IMG/VR virus record: IMGVR_UViG_3300010970_000048
Location: 1 to 32,624 of that record
DNA: 32,624 bases
Source of the DNA: a virus
Strand: one strand, 5' to 3'
Part shown: in pieces, positions 2,059 to 32,624 of the stretch
Layout of the letters: every line of letters begins with the position of its first letter
Numbering within the stretch: position 1 is the first letter of the stretch
Position numbers and translations under genes: made by a program
The notes under the pieces: generated by a model
Seen by the model: the letters and a program-made list of their open reading frames with translations, nothing else
Database searches by the model: none
Told to the model about the DNA's origin: nothing

Positions 2059-2682
2059 CTAACTTTTTTTAGCTGATTCCTGCATGTAGTTTTTCATGGC
2101 ATTTCTGAACTGATCTTTTTCACTGGTCACATCATCACTGGATCTGTTTTGATCACCACTGGATTTGAATTGTGCATTCTGTTCATCTTTAAATCTTACA
2201 TACTGCCTGTGCCTTTCATCCCTGTAATTTTCTAGCATCTCAAAAAATGTAGGTATGTCCATACGGTCATACACTTTGCCATACTTAGCTTTGACCATAC
2301 CATCTAGGAAAAGCATGACATCCTCAAATGCCAGCTGATCCTCATTGGCTGAATCAATCAGCTGCAATGACAGTTCCATCACCTGGTCTGCATTCATACC
2401 TACCCTCAGGTTGAAATTTGATAAAGCCTTATTGATGGCTTTGGCTAGGATGGCAGATACTTTATCCATGCCGTATGTATTCACCAGCCCAGGCAATCTG
2501 TCTTTGACTGGGATCTGTTGGATGACCATCATTGGCAATGGCTCTCCCTTTTCTTTCCACCTGCACATTTCATTGAATACCTGTCCTGTGCTACCTACTG
2601 CCAAAGCGTTTAGCAAATGCCTCGTGTAGTTGTTGGTCTGTGATATGGCTAGATCTTGCCTGGTTTGTTTTTGCAGTTCCAT
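2059..2682 (-). CDS. Replication-region protein of unknown function (207 aa)
   Basis: A helical, soluble protein following the replication initiator. It carries a conserved-looking stretch at about residues 98-165 ('MNADQVMELSLQLI', 'FEDVMLFLDGMVKAKYGKVY', 'LENYRDERHRQYVRFKDEQN') and a polar, probably disordered C-terminus. I recognise the pattern from Bacteroidota phages, where it follows the initiator gene; its place would suit a helicase loader, but no Walker motif is present. ATG at 2682 has the A-rich upstream sequence typical here but overlaps the initiator gene by 92 bases; the next ATG is at residue 39, after the overlap. Confidence 0.6.
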   Translation of the reverse strand: MELQKQTRQDLAISQTNNYTRHLLNALAVGSTGQVFNEMCRWKEKGEPLPMMVIQQIPVKDRLPGLVNTYGMDKVSAILAKAINKALSNFNLRVGMNADQVMELSLQLIDSANEDQLAFEDVMLFLDGMVKAKYGKVYDRMDIPTFFEMLENYRDERHRQYVRFKDEQNAQFKSSGDQNRSSDDVTSEKDQFRNAMKNYMQESAKKS

Positions 2683-3325
2683 TGTTTTCAGTTTTTAATT
2701 CAAAAAATCCTTTCCATCCTTTTGCCATTGATTGCATGATGATCTTGATGGCAACATCCTCATGTCCATCTGATAGTTTCACCAGTTCATTCAAACTGGC
2801 TTGCTCAGATCCAGCTGACTTGAATTTGAATTTGTGATCCTGGGATTTGTAGTCTTTCCAGGTTTCCCAATAGTCTATGAATTTTGCAGATGTCCAGGGT
2901 ATTGTGATTTCAATTTTTGGTTTTGCTTTTTTTCCATTTTTACTTTCATCTTTATTTTCATTTTCATTTTCATTTTCATTTTCATTTTCCATATGTGGTG
3001 ACATATGTTTTTCATATGTAGATGATATGATTGTTTTTTTACTAATTCTGTTAGCTTTTCGGCTATCAGTGAAGTTTCTCCGCTTGTTGATCTCATCTTC
3101 TACTCTTTGGTTGAAGTACAAACCATTGTCATCTTTTTTGAATTTTGCGAAAATGTCGGCATCATATGTTTTACATATGTGCAACATATGTTTCTCACTT
3201 AGCCTGCCATGTAGGTGCTGCATACATAACAGTCTGATATACTTTCCAACTTGCTCATCAGACATGAAAGCCACGCCTGTGATGAAGTCACTGGAATAAA
3301 ATAGGAATGCTGGATCTTTTGCCAT
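2591..3325 (-). CDS. Putative phage replication initiator (DUF1376-like N-terminus)
   Basis: This 244-aa protein has an N-terminal domain (about residues 1-95) of the 'MAKDPAFLFYSSDFITG', 'SDEQVGKYIRLLCMQHLHG' type found in phage replication proteins. A linker follows with an Asn-Glu repeat (about residues 113-124) and Lys-rich sequence, then a C-terminal helical domain (about 140-244). This initiator-linker-loader layout resembles phage O and DnaD-like proteins. The DNA for the linker and for residues 45-55 carries six CATATGT boxes (see the repeat entries), as expected if the origin lies inside the initiator gene. A terminator-like leader RNA sits directly before the ATG. The replication role is inferred from family resemblance and position. 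Confidence 0.7.
   Translation of the reverse strand: MAKDPAFLFYSSDFITGVAFMSDEQVGKYIRLLCMQHLHGRLSEKHMLHICKTYDADIFAKFKKDDNGLYFNQRVEDEINKRRNFTDSRKANRISKKTIISSTYEKHMSPHMENENENENENENKDESKNGKKAKPKIEITIPWTSAKFIDYWETWKDYKSQDHKFKFKSAGSEQASLNELVKLSDGHEDVAIKIIMQSMAKGWKGFFELKTENNGTAKTNQARSSHITDQQLHEAFAKRFGSR
2954..2989. repeat. Hexamer tandem repeat (ATTTTC x6)
   Basis: Six perfect copies of ATTTTC (GAAAAT on the coding strand) encode the alternating Glu-Asn stretch in the linker of the replication protein. The repeat directly abuts the first CATATGT box at 2990. A six-base unit keeps the reading frame, so copy number can vary without breaking the gene. It is A+T-rich with strand-asymmetric purines, as expected of an easily melted element next to an origin. 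Confidence 0.85.
2990..3191. repeat. Iteron-like CATATGT boxes, putative replication origin
   Basis: Six CATATGT boxes lie within 202 bases, in two triplets: 2990-2996, 3002-3008, 3013-3019 and 3163-3169, 3174-3180, 3185-3191. Start-to-start spacing within triplets is 12, 11, 11 and 11 bases, about one helical turn. Flanks are often A-rich, and the core CATATG is its own reverse complement. The spacing moves each box to a different codon phase in the replication gene (for example read as His-Met, His-Ile-Cys and Thr-Tyr), so DNA is conserved rather than protein. The array resembles origin iterons such as those in the lambda O gene. CATATG elsewhere in the window is sparse. Confidence 0.65.
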
Positions 3326-3330
3326 AGGTT

Positions 3331-3367
3331 AAAAAAAAAGCCCCAGTGTAGTGGATTACAAAGGGGC
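3331..3367 (-). terminator. Terminator or attenuator just before the replication gene
   Basis: A GCCCC/GGGGC stem (3340-3344 with 3363-3367) is followed on the minus strand by nine T (3331-3339), and the replication gene ATG lies 5 bases further on. Transcripts coming from the HTH gene at 3739-3473 or starting near 3421 would meet it before the gene, so readthrough must be allowed or regulated. Confidence 0.6.
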
Positions 3368-3416
3368 AGGTTAGATACTAACCAATAAACTCAGAATATC
3401 ATCCACTATATTCTGA
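3331..3416 (-). ncRNA. Structured leader RNA with complementary hairpin loops before the replication gene
   Basis: Read on the minus strand, three hairpins follow each other. H1 (3391-3416) is a perfect 9-base-pair stem TCAGAATAT/ATATTCTGA with loop AGTGGATG. H2 (3369-3383) is GGTTAG/CTAACC with a three-base loop. H3 (3340-3367) is GCCCC/GGGGC with a probable inner GTA/TAC stem and apical loop ATCCAC, followed by nine T. The H1 loop contains GTGGAT, exactly complementary to the H3 loop, so a loop-loop (kissing) contact is possible. A promoter-like sequence lies just upstream. It could be an attenuator of the replication gene or a small separate RNA. No known RNA family is recognised. Confidence 0.55.
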
Positions 3417-3969: not shown

Positions 3970-4290
3970 TTAAAATGGCAGGTCATCATCTACAATCACT
4001 GCATCCTCAACAGGTGCAGCTGGTGCAGACTTTTTCACTGGTACATTTGCACTCTCTGTCTGTTGCTTTGCCTCAACAAATTTCAGGTTGCCCACATACG
4101 TTTTTTTCTCTTTGGCCTCTCTTTCCTCTTTGGTTTGTCCAACCTGGATGCTGCCATTGTTGTTGTACTGATCAGGCTCATCATTCAACCATACGTTGAT
4201 GTTTAGATACTTTTTACCTGATTTTGCCTCCCAAATTTTGTCCTTTGGGATGTCTGATAGGCAGATGCTGCCTGTTAGCAATTTGCTCAT
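3970..4290 (-). CDS. ssb: Single-stranded DNA-binding protein
   Basis: A 106-aa protein beginning MSKLLTGSICLSDIPKDKI, with OB-fold-like strands ('KKYLNINVWLND', 'TYVGNLKFV'), a Pro/Ala-rich linker and the acidic tail DDDLPF. That tail is the classic SSB C-terminal peptide used to recruit partner proteins. I know this compact form from Bacteroidota phages next to erf genes. The frame is open to 4383, but that would overlap the upstream gene; ATG at 4290 lies 7 bases after its stop and starts the conserved sequence. It should coat single strands during replication and Erf-driven annealing. Confidence 0.8.
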   Translation of the reverse strand: MSKLLTGSICLSDIPKDKIWEAKSGKKYLNINVWLNDEPDQYNNNGSIQVGQTKEEREAKEKKTYVGNLKFVEAKQQTESANVPVKKSAPAAPVEDAVIVDDDLPF

Positions 4291-4297
4291 GTTTGTT

Positions 4298-4735
4298 TTA
4301 TTTAGGGATTTGAATTTTGAATGTTGATGTGCTGGTCTTGATCGGCAAATCACCTTTGTGATATGTCCTTTCATGATCCTCAATGGCTTTCTGTTTTTCC
4401 TTTAGTTCAGCAATTTGCTGATCCAGTTCTGACCACCCAGGTAGATGGCTGTAGTCATATTTGATGCTGGTCATCTCTGACACCTGCACACCATTGATCT
4501 CAGCTTTCATCTTTGGATGTTTGCCCAGTTCATCCATCACATCACTGCTGATTTTCTCTTTGACCATCTTTGTCAATGTCTCCATTGCATTCAGTCTGAT
4601 CACAGCATCCAGTGGATTGATGTAGCCATCTTTCACCTGTTCTGCAATGGCCTCAGCCATCAGATCCAGGCCAAATTTGGTAGGGGCAATTTCCCCTACC
4701 TTAATGTCATCAAGATTAATTTTTTCTAATTGCAT
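4298..4735 (-). CDS. Recombination-region protein of unknown function (145 aa)
   Basis: A soluble protein lying between erf and ssb. The N-terminal half is helical ('LDLMAEAIAEQVKDGYINPL', 'RLNAMETLTKMVKEKI'). Residues 88-122 ('KYDYSHLPGWSELDQQIA' and the following Lys/Glu helix) look like a short coiled coil. Proteins with this 'YDYS...W..L' pattern are common in the same spot in Bacteroidota phages, and their function is not known to me. It overlaps erf by 20 bases, and its position suggests an accessory recombination role. Confidence 0.6.
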   Translation of the reverse strand: MQLEKINLDDIKVGEIAPTKFGLDLMAEAIAEQVKDGYINPLDAVIRLNAMETLTKMVKEKISSDVMDELGKHPKMKAEINGVQVSEMTSIKYDYSHLPGWSELDQQIAELKEKQKAIEDHERTYHKGDLPIKTSTSTFKIQIPK

Positions 4736-5366
4736 CTTTTTTAGTTGTAAAGTGTGATTTAAGTTTGTTATCCTCTACCAGCTTTGCATTGACATGATAC
4801 AATGTGTTCAGCTGTCCTATGCTCTCACAGCTGTCCAGTACCATCAACAGGTCATCAGGTGTGGTGTATGTTTTCCTGGCCAACAGATCAACCTCAGATG
4901 GCTGTGGCTCTGCCTTTGGTTTGACCTCATGTGTCTCATACTCTGTGTCCAGCTTTTCCTCTGTAGGGATCAGAAACATTTGCATCAATGCATATTTCAA
5001 TGCAGTGGACATGGCTTTGTTTGTAGACTTGTCACCGCTGTCCATAGCCTCACCCTCCAGGACAGATTCAATGAATGATCCATCAGTGGTGAAAAATTTA
5101 AACTGGCATTTGGCAATGGTGTAGATTAGCACACCACCTTTTGCTGTCTGCCTTTCCTCTCTCTTAGATTCCAGGACATTGCTGGTGATGAATACTGCAT
5201 TTTTTTTGAACAGTGGCTGCAAAGCATTGTACATGTCATCAATGCCTCTGAATGAATAGCCCTGTGCTTGATTCTTTTTGTTTTTACCAATGGCCTCAAT
5301 TTCCTGCATGATTGCATTGATGGCCATGTAAATGTTGTTTTGTGTCATTGCTTTAGTTGTTTTCAT
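4716..5366 (-). CDS. erf: ERF-family single-strand annealing protein
   Basis: This 216-aa protein carries the ERF family core. It has 'YMAINAIMQEIEAIGKNKKN' at the start, 'GYSFRGIDDMYNALQPLF' (about residues 36-53), and the diagnostic 'GDKSTNKAMSTALKYALMQM' (about 112-131) ending 'FLIPTEE'. ERF proteins anneal complementary single strands in phage recombination and genome circularisation. The C-terminal third is Pro/Glu-rich, then helical. It sits with ssb and the VRR-NUC nuclease in one early operon, a usual phage recombination set. Its end overlaps the next gene by 20 bases and its start overlaps the gene before by 14. Confidence 0.9.
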   Translation of the reverse strand: MKTTKAMTQNNIYMAINAIMQEIEAIGKNKKNQAQGYSFRGIDDMYNALQPLFKKNAVFITSNVLESKREERQTAKGGVLIYTIAKCQFKFFTTDGSFIESVLEGEAMDSGDKSTNKAMSTALKYALMQMFLIPTEEKLDTEYETHEVKPKAEPQPSEVDLLARKTYTTPDDLLMVLDSCESIGQLNTLYHVNAKLVEDNKLKSHFTTKKDAIRKN

Positions 5367-7014: not shown

Positions 7015-8094
7015 TTAAACATGCATCAAAGCTGATGCCTGGTGTTTAATTTTATCCCCTGTCAGATGGTAGTAAACTTTCACAGTATTGGCATTCACAC
7101 CCAGTAGTGCTGCTGTGGTGCTTTCAGGCAATCCATTGGCTGCACACATGTACCCAAATGAATGCCTGCCACTGTGTGTGCTGATCTCTTTGTCAATGCC
7201 AGCCATAGATGCCAGGCTTTTTAACATGACATTGCATTTCTGATTGCTCAGTGGTTTTAAATTATTCTCAATATGTTTAAGAATCTTTGAAAGTGTTTTG
7301 CCTATAGGCAGCACCACATGTGTTTTGTTTTTCAATGCTCTCAGCTTTACATGTCCATCCTCAACATTGCTCATGCTGAATCTGCCCCAGTCTGAATGCC
7401 TCAGTCCAGTGTAGCACCCTAGTAAAAAATAGGACAGTGTTGCATGCATTGATTTGCTCATAGGTTTGTCCAGCAGATCCACCATCAATTTCAATTCATG
7501 ATCTACCAGGTACAGCCTATCTGTCTGCTGGTACTTTGGTTTGATGTATTGATCAAATGGATCATCATGAATGATCTTTTCTTTCCTGGCCTGTGTGATG
7601 ATCCTGCTGACATATTTGATGGTTGTGTGTATTGTGTTTTGTGCCAGTGGCTTTTTTCTGCACCAGGTTTCAAACTTTCTCAGCCATTCAACTGTCACAT
7701 CACTGATCAATAATTGCTCACCTCCATAGTCTATGATCCTGTTCAATTTTGTCTGATCCCATTTGACCTCTTTTGCATATTGCTTGAATGACCTGGCCAC
7801 TGTCACCTGGCCTTTGATAATCCTCTTTGACAGCTGCACACCCTGGATGCTGTTGTTGATTAGATCCCTTTCAATTTCGGCAATCTTTCGCCTGATGGAC
7901 ACATTGATCAGCTTTGCATTTTCATGCTTGTAAACAGCTTTATTTTCCCCATCCCATTGATCCAGGTGAATCCTGTGTGATGTGTTTATGTATGTCACTT
8001 TCCTGTCTACTGTGACTGCAATCTTTATGGATGTGATCCCTTTACTGTTTGCTTTGTGTGATAGCACAACTGGCCTGATGGTGAACTTTTGCAT
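7015..8094 (-). CDS. int: Tyrosine recombinase (phage integrase)
   Basis: A 359-aa protein with the three-part layout of Bacteroidota integrases: an arm-binding N-terminal domain (about 1-90), a SAM-like core-binding domain (about 100-190) and the catalytic domain (about 195-350). Catalytic residues are R232 ('GCYTGLRHSDW'), a Lys near 255-257 ('ALKNKTHVVLP'), H307-x-x-R310 ('STHSGRHSFGYM') and the nucleophile Y341 ('KVYYHLT'). The second His, usually in 'LGH', is replaced: 'LLGVNANT' has V333. It integrates and, with the excisionase, excises the phage. The start lies 3 bases from the first GGGTAAAAC arm-site copy, so Int binding may repress its own gene. It converges with the repressor. Confidence 0.93.
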   Translation of the reverse strand: MQKFTIRPVVLSHKANSKGITSIKIAVTVDRKVTYINTSHRIHLDQWDGENKAVYKHENAKLINVSIRRKIAEIERDLINNSIQGVQLSKRIIKGQVTVARSFKQYAKEVKWDQTKLNRIIDYGGEQLLISDVTVEWLRKFETWCRKKPLAQNTIHTTIKYVSRIITQARKEKIIHDDPFDQYIKPKYQQTDRLYLVDHELKLMVDLLDKPMSKSMHATLSYFLLGCYTGLRHSDWGRFSMSNVEDGHVKLRALKNKTHVVLPIGKTLSKILKHIENNLKPLSNQKCNVMLKSLASMAGIDKEISTHSGRHSFGYMCAANGLPESTTAALLGVNANTVKVYYHLTGDKIKHQASALMHV

Positions 8095-31643: not shown

Positions 31644-32624
31644 TTATTTGTTTTGATGAATCACAAATATAGTATAACTCCCTCTCTTTGTGTTGTAGTT
31701 ATTCCATGCAAGTGCCAGTGCCATCACACAGTCATCATGAAATCCTGTAGGTGCTGCATACTTCACACCAGTGTTTGTGAACTCATATTCAAAGATGTTT
31801 AGTTCAGCTGTGATTGCCCCATCAGGAAATGCAATCTTTCTTTGTTGGATGGCTGTCTGTAGTCCTGTCATCAGTTGTTGCTTAGATGTGCTGCTAAATC
31901 TAAACCCTTTCACATCTAGTCCCTCTGCCTGTAGATCCTCAAAGATAGGATCACCCACCCCTGTGCTATCCATCAGGATCGGTGTCCTGGGCAGTGCTGT
32001 GATCCTTTGCTTTGTTGTACGCCAGTCATCCTGAAACCTATCAAAGTGACACACTGTGCCATTCTCATCCAGGCCTATGATCACTGTGTAGTCATATGAC
32101 TTTGCCAGGTCAATGCCATAGCATACAGCTGGCTGATTGCTCATGGGATAGGTACACTGTTGGATGAACATTGCACCAAATGGATTTGCCACATTCTCAT
32201 TGAACTCTGCCATGTATTCCTGGCTGAATGCTAGTTCAGGCAGATCACCTCTAGCCTCATCAATCTCTGATGCATCAATGTATGGATTTGTGTAGGTAGA
32301 CATTTGCCAGCTTACCCATCCAGGATCACCTGATTTGCCTCTCTGCCACATTTTGTGAAAGTCATTTTTGCCTTTAGGTGTAGACAGAAAAAATGCATCA
32401 CCTTTAAAGTCAGTAAGTGTAGGCCTGATGGATTCAGTCCACCTATGCCACAACTGTTTGACAAAGGCAGCCTCATCCACTATTGTCCTGTGGTATTTCC
32501 TGGATCTACCTGCCAGTTCATTCTCTAAACTCCAAAACTCTATTTTGCCACCTGTGATCAGTTCAATGAATTGATGGTCATTCTTTCTCCTTATGATAGG
32601 CTCTAGGGCATGCAGGCACTCATT
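31644..32624 (-). CDS. terL: Terminase large subunit, C-terminal part (cut by window edge)
   Basis: The frame is open to the right edge; 326 residues are visible. The ATPase Walker B is 'RTIVDEAAF' (D50-E51 counted from the edge) with the coupling motif 'FLSTPKGKND' after it. The RNase H-like nuclease has Asp in 'CYGIDLAKSYDYTV', in 'ILMDSTGVGD' and in 'TGFHDDCVMAL', the three metal-binding positions. It packages DNA by ATP hydrolysis and cuts concatemers. The Walker A part is beyond the edge. A GTG at 32480 lies in the middle of the Walker B motif and is not the start. Its last residues (HQNK) come from the junction repeat of the small-gene cassette. Confidence 0.93.
   Translation of the reverse strand, partial: NECLHALEPIIRRKNDHQFIELITGGKIEFWSLENELAGRSRKYHRTIVDEAAFVKQLWHRWTESIRPTLTDFKGDAFFLSTPKGKNDFHKMWQRGKSGDPGWVSWQMSTYTNPYIDASEIDEARGDLPELAFSQEYMAEFNENVANPFGAMFIQQCTYPMSNQPAVCYGIDLAKSYDYTVIIGLDENGTVCHFDRFQDDWRTTKQRITALPRTPILMDSTGVGDPIFEDLQAEGLDVKGFRFSSTSKQQLMTGLQTAIQQRKIAFPDGAITAELNIFEYEFTNTGVKYAAPTGFHDDCVMALALAWNNYNTKRGSYTIFVIHQNK

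Follow-up and report, generated by a model that had tools for sequence, protein, structure and literature searches.

The segment 2954-3191 of the virus sequence analysed here very probably (at a probability of roughly 0.87) constitutes an origin of theta replication inside the gene of its own initiator, which would bind two clusters of short boxes, open a GAAAAT-repeat tract and load the helicase. The window, i.e., the complete IMG/VR virus record IMGVR_UViG_3300010970_000048 (32,624 bases), contains here six helically phased boxes, which are selected independently of the encoded protein, change together with the N-terminal domain of the initiator and adjoin an AT-rich tract. Initiator binding, melting of the tract, helicase loading and a joint action of both clusters are what these sequence patterns suggest.

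Organization of the initiator gene and its boxes

As the first-pass annotation had described, CATATGT occurs as two triplets beside a perfect sixfold ATTTTC tandem repeat, and the boxes fall in different codon phases; all three phases are used (HM, H-IC, and T-Y). The start-to-start steps are 12, 11, 150, 11, and 11 bases, and the boxes span 202 bases in total (2990-3191), all within one minus-strand open reading frame, in which they read ACATATG on the coding strand (Table 1). As the six-base core CATATG is a palindrome, the boxes are direct repeats only by virtue of the flanking A. In gene order, the start of the N-terminal domain is followed by boxes A, B, and C (set 1), about 144 bp, boxes D, E, and F (set 2), the GAAAAT repeats and the C-terminal domain. 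Set 1 (gene nucleotides 135-163) coincides with codons 46-54 (HMLHICKTY) inside the helix-turn-helix; set 2 (gene nucleotides 307-336) is kept in relatives.

The unusual part is the clustering, as CATATG is not enriched over the window (14 sites against 17 expected). Shuffling of the gene almost never placed more than two CATATGT boxes within 202 bp (four in 1 of 3000 shuffles), and shuffling of the whole window never placed more than three. No further word in the 32.6 kb exceeds three copies at 10-12 bp spacing, the ATTTTC microsatellite excepted. The 50 bp following set 2 are 82% AT, which ranks within the top 0.2% of such segments in the window. Cumulative GC skew, a check proposed in the first-pass annotation, drifts one way throughout the window and gives no support for an origin; it is uninformative here, as almost every gene is on the same strand.

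Table 1. Features of the replication region (coordinates in the 32,624-base window)
Feature	Coordinates	Strand	Remarks
Downstream gene overlapping the initiator gene, DUF6633-like, phrog_35728	2059-2682	minus	Profile matches
Replication initiator gene (P0001, 244 aa)	2591-3325	minus	DUF1376-like N-domain, disordered linker, helical C-domain
C-terminal domain, residues 138-205	2711-2914	minus	Joined to several other N-domain types elsewhere
Putative DNA unwinding element: sixfold GAAAAT (coding strand), sixfold ATTTTC (plus strand)	2954-2989	minus	Encodes (EN)6
Box set 2 (D, E, F)	2990-2996, 3002-3008, 3013-3019 (plus-strand positions)	minus (gene)	Linker codons TYEKHMSPHM
N-terminal domain, residues 1-95	3041-3325	minus	AlphaFold2 model
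Box set 1 (A, B, C)	3163-3169, 3174-3180, 3185-3191 (plus-strand positions)	minus (gene)	ACATATG three times in coding-strand reading
Terminator-like hairpin GCCCC..GGGGC, then U9	3331-3367	minus	Shortly before the start codon of the initiator gene
SSB-like gene (weak)	3970-4383	minus	Upstream of the initiator gene
ERF single-strand annealing protein gene	4716-5366	minus	Upstream of the initiator gene

The initiator P0001 matches PHROG 678 ('replication initiation O-like', E=4.7e-6, residues 82-231) as well as PHROG 9327 ('primosomal protein'). With Pfam DUF1376 (PF07120) it scores 17.4 bits (E=0.0059), below the curated cut-off of 30.1, and it is therefore named DUF1376-like. In the AlphaFold2 model (mean pLDDT 83.7), the linker is disordered at about residues 113-130 and the C-terminal domain is helical, while the N-terminal domain comprises helices 11-18, 23-39, 44-51, and 56-59, a hairpin at about 62-72 and a helix 73-95. 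The order of helices and strands in this confidently modelled domain points to a winged helix. The viral models most similar to this domain in structure are DUF1376, Lin1244-type and replication proteins; sequence and fold searches found no significant solved-structure relative for either domain of P0001, nor did sequence comparison relate the N-terminal domain to lambda O. The C-terminal domain likely interacts with the helicase or its loader.

The order ERF-SSB-initiator is shared with Lactobacillus phage LBR48, and a VRR-NUC nuclease gene is also among the neighbours of the initiator gene. The DUF6633-like/phrog_35728 family follows distant initiators as well (L305 and L117), and in relatives the next gene encodes a DnaC-like loader or a DnaB-like helicase; going by position only, the product of the overlapping gene is a possible candidate for a new helicase loader. 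The terminator-like hairpin (region 3326-3385) is conserved in the relative L008, with a z score of -4.2 in both, and may control either the expression of the initiator or transcription that passes through the origin.

Elsewhere in the window, a tyrosine integrase with Arm-DNA-bind_5 and SAM-like domains is encoded at 7015-8094, which suggests that the phage is temperate. A terminase large subunit frame (31644-32624) exits at the right end and another frame (3-347) at the left end, which makes the record either a fragment or an opened circle.

Conservation of the boxes and their association with the N-terminal domain

A first homolog scan of viral contigs provided 80 relatives; its pattern included the peptide HMENENEN and was thus biased for set 2. 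Later scans, which queried residues 1-85 only, are free of this bias. Further loci came from searches with the C-terminal or the N-terminal domain only and from prokaryote genome contigs (Clostridia, Bacteroidales, Flavobacterium, Chitinophagaceae, and others). Clustering of the N-terminal domains at 80% identity resulted in 112 representatives.

Conservation of the boxes irrespective of codon phase in homologous genes, the check that the first-pass annotation had named, proved strongly positive. The relatives keep the boxes at the same or at shifted offsets, and box positions and phasing are maintained down to about 40% protein identity. At least two CATATG sites are present in 82 of the 112 representatives, at a density of 3.92 per kb in the gene versus 0.16 per kb in the remainder of the loci (24-fold), and both sets occupy all three phases. 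Gaps between neighbours closer than 40 bp (n=169 in the 112 representatives) measure 11 bp (107), 12 bp (40), 22-24 bp (20) or 36-37 bp (2), with no other values. The distance between the two clusters, on the other hand, has no helical coherence across the relatives (R <= 0.28). The other 30 representatives have fewer than two CATATG sites, and only some of them have another word; roughly a quarter of the divergent homologs have no convincing boxes by the methods used, of which the exact 6-mer phasing is blind to degenerate boxes and the 1-mismatch search is overrun in several genes by linker repeats of GGATAA or AAAGTA. A word-independent two-region test was positive in 36% of 126 initiator genes, compared with 2.1% of synonymous shuffles and none of 273 control ORFs. 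The cultured Leeuwenhoekiella phage Arctus_1 has 3+3 boxes of the TTGCAA type at exact 11-bp steps, located at offsets 149-171 and 330-352 of its gene.

The tract following set 2 is likewise under constraint. Across the family, these 50 bp average 81% AT versus 64% for the loci (median within the top 1.7%), and the EN linker uses GAA in 221 of 221 and AAT in 192 of 192 codons, compared with 77% and 65% elsewhere. Microsatellite slippage may add to the uniformity of the GAAAAT repeats.

Some other genes show phased boxes in the linker. A gene from a Clostridia MAG (L267, 4989-5783) has seven AACCCA boxes at 11-12 bp steps (gene offsets 305-374), which form one linker cluster; set 1 was not seen there. 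The annotated initiator genes of Geobacillus virus E2 (ATCSATA x5; L311, 667-1515) and EF62phi (ATAGCAA x4; L306, 1183-2079) have linker boxes in 11-bp phase.

The identity of the box word goes with the type of N-terminal domain. Among genes with a P0001-type C-terminal domain, at least two CATATG sites occur in 29 of 33 that have a DUF1376-like N-terminal domain and in none of 57 that have another one (representatives only: 16 of 20 versus 0 of 14, Fisher p 2e-6). In L016, L024/L025, and L043, the C-terminal domain is 67-92% identical to that of P0001, the N-terminal domain is unrelated and CATATG is absent; AAGCCCC words lie around codons 19-25 and again in the linker, where GGATAA repeats come next. 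(An AlphaFold model of L016 was left out for its low confidence, 63.6.) Lin1244-type N-terminal domains (L105 and L159, the latter Pfam PF14297) occur with GCAATG-like words, and divergent DUF1376-like ones with ATACCA, GATAACC, AAGCTA, and AACCAA words; CCGTGGC is also found with a divergent N-terminal domain. Many genes with a P0001-type C-terminal domain and a different N-terminal domain thus have a word other than CATATG (AAGCCCC or GCAATG) in an unchanged layout, located both in the N-domain and in the linker. As a swap of the N-terminal domain is accompanied by a swap of the word, the boxes track the winged-helix domain.

Alternative readings and the proposed origin

The boxes could be a side effect of peptides that are conserved or repeated (HM..IC.TY and HMENEN): the nearest homologs retain these peptides, and synonymous shuffles of the P0001 gene already give a high expectation (about 2.9 of the six boxes). 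The use of three codon phases disagrees with such an origin of the boxes, and so does their number: the 112 representatives contain 315 CATATG sites, while protein-preserving codon shuffles give 173 +/- 6.7 (21 s.d.). Ile50 is encoded by ATA in 65 of 72 genes versus 45% for other Ile residues there (p ~1e-14), and the codons of Tyr54 and Cys51 are also biased toward the box, whereas those of neighbouring conserved residues used as controls (Ile30, Ile58, Tyr10, and Tyr29) are not. Furthermore, the same word occurs at different protein positions: in L301, L303, L305, L117, and L302, a box pair at about nucleotides 102 and 113 results in HMRNIC at residues 34-39, where P0001 has other residues, its HMLHIC corresponding to residues 46-51. 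Another word can also yield another peptide at the same position, as in L260, where CCGTGGC boxes are found in both places and AVALAVANP replaces HMLHICKTY. The claim that the protein does not explain the boxes thus holds, and the peptide reading, refuted by the codon bias and by the shifting positions of word and peptide in distant relatives, retains hardly any likelihood. It is the DNA word that dictates the peptide, not the reverse.

Restriction or methylation targets, or recombination joints at which the N-terminal module is exchanged, are very improbable explanations, even though CATATG is the NdeI site and the N- and C-terminal domains do recombine: from one subfamily to another the word changes wholly but its spacing and layout persist, set 1 lies within the N-terminal domain away from the exchange boundary, and restriction does not explain helical phasing. 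The boxes might also be operators through which the initiator or another repressor silences the replication operon from within the gene, with the origin located elsewhere. Iteron initiators often both replicate and regulate, a palindromic six-base core is typical of regulator sites, the terminator-like hairpin just upstream suggests regulation at the locus, and set 1 by itself could serve as a roadblock. Operators are usually found at promoters rather than in the middle of a gene, however, and no other phased cluster is present in the window. The adjoining AT-rich tract, constrained at the DNA level, points to an origin, and the anatomy matches that of the Tuc2009 Rep gene, which is annotated and reported as an origin. 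A purely regulatory role of the boxes is accordingly improbable.

In the intragenic origin that we favour, the initiator produced from the same gene would bind both ACATATG clusters through its N-terminal winged-helix domain, and the bound molecules would be aligned on one face of the DNA because the boxes are one turn apart. The resulting nucleoprotein complex would open the adjoining GAAAAT-repeat tract, and the C-terminal domain would recruit the replicative helicase together with either a host loader or the protein encoded by the overlapping downstream gene. Least certain is what set 1 does: it may reinforce the complex at the origin, loop to set 2 or impede transcription.

The family might stand for a class of two-part intragenic phage origins. 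One cluster would be written in the codons of the helix-turn-helix that reads it, the turnover of the two clusters would be joint, and new specificities would arise and spread as self-contained gene segments; this generalization is tentative, and we put it somewhat short of even odds. If it is true, a change of the origin sequence also alters the DNA-binding domain. The boxes described here are a clear case of overlapping codes, with a DNA signal that shapes the amino acids of a folded DNA-binding domain. The origin reading would place the start of replication in a large, mostly uncharacterised set of phages and prophages (Bacteroidota, Clostridia, and other contigs) and provide a rule for finding origins, namely one word that recurs in 11-12 bp phase both among the codons of the N-domain and in the linker, with AT-rich repeats behind it. 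Since N-terminal domain and box word occur in many natural pairs, the joint change of initiator and origin specificity is directly testable.

Comparison with known intragenic origins

The first-pass annotation likened the locus to the lambda O origin. The presence of iterons beside an AT-rich tract in an initiator gene agrees with this comparison, but a closer precedent exists in Tuc2009 and r1t, with their boxes at steps of exactly 11 bp. In lambda, four iterons of 18-19 bp and an AT-rich tract of 38 bp are located in the middle of gene O (PMC3349717, PMC3985674). Both systems share repeats in the middle of the initiator gene, an AT-rich tract that follows in the same order and a modular initiator; set 2 sits, as in lambda, in the linker between the DNA-binding and the C-terminal domains, a likeness in position only. 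Unlike the lambda iterons, which are about 20-24 bp apart in one cluster, the boxes described here are 7 bp long, recur every 11-12 bp and form two clusters, set 1 lying additionally inside N-domain codons. The match of P0001 to the O-like PHROG 678 is weak. The position of lambda gene P is taken here by the DUF6633-like gene and in L286, L269, and EF62phi by a gene for a DnaC-like loader.

The Tuc2009 Rep gene, noted in its record as containing the origin of replication, has four GCAACCA-like boxes (offsets 340, 351, 362, and 373), and r1t ORF11 has four TGGAACC-like boxes (offsets 314, 325, 336, and 347), in both cases followed by tandem repeats. TP901-1 ORF13 and Rep2009 are reported to bind direct repeats inside their own genes (PMC8965321). 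The locus resembles Tuc2009 and r1t in the location of the origin in the initiator gene, in linker boxes at 11-bp phase followed by short tandem repeats and in a similar gene order. It differs in the box words, which are unrelated, and in the second cluster within winged-helix codons; a scan of the DNA-binding-domain codons of Tuc2009 and r1t revealed no second set. The TP901-1 rep gene, although reported to contain an origin, has no 11-bp-phased word in our scan, so the phasing rule is not universal. For P1 oriL, located within repL, synonymous substitution demonstrated the need for an AT-rich element, according to the abstract (PMC9948254); it shares with the present locus the intragenic position and the AT-rich element, its initiator is different, and the abstract mentions no phased boxes.

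A literature search on DUF1376 origins returned nothing relevant, and the literature searched, which covered few subscription papers, contains no report of a second cluster in winged-helix codons. The general kind, an intragenic origin in the initiator gene, is known from lambda O and especially from Tuc2009 and r1t; what looks new is the second cluster, set in DNA-binding-domain codons, and the fact that both clusters turn over in concert.
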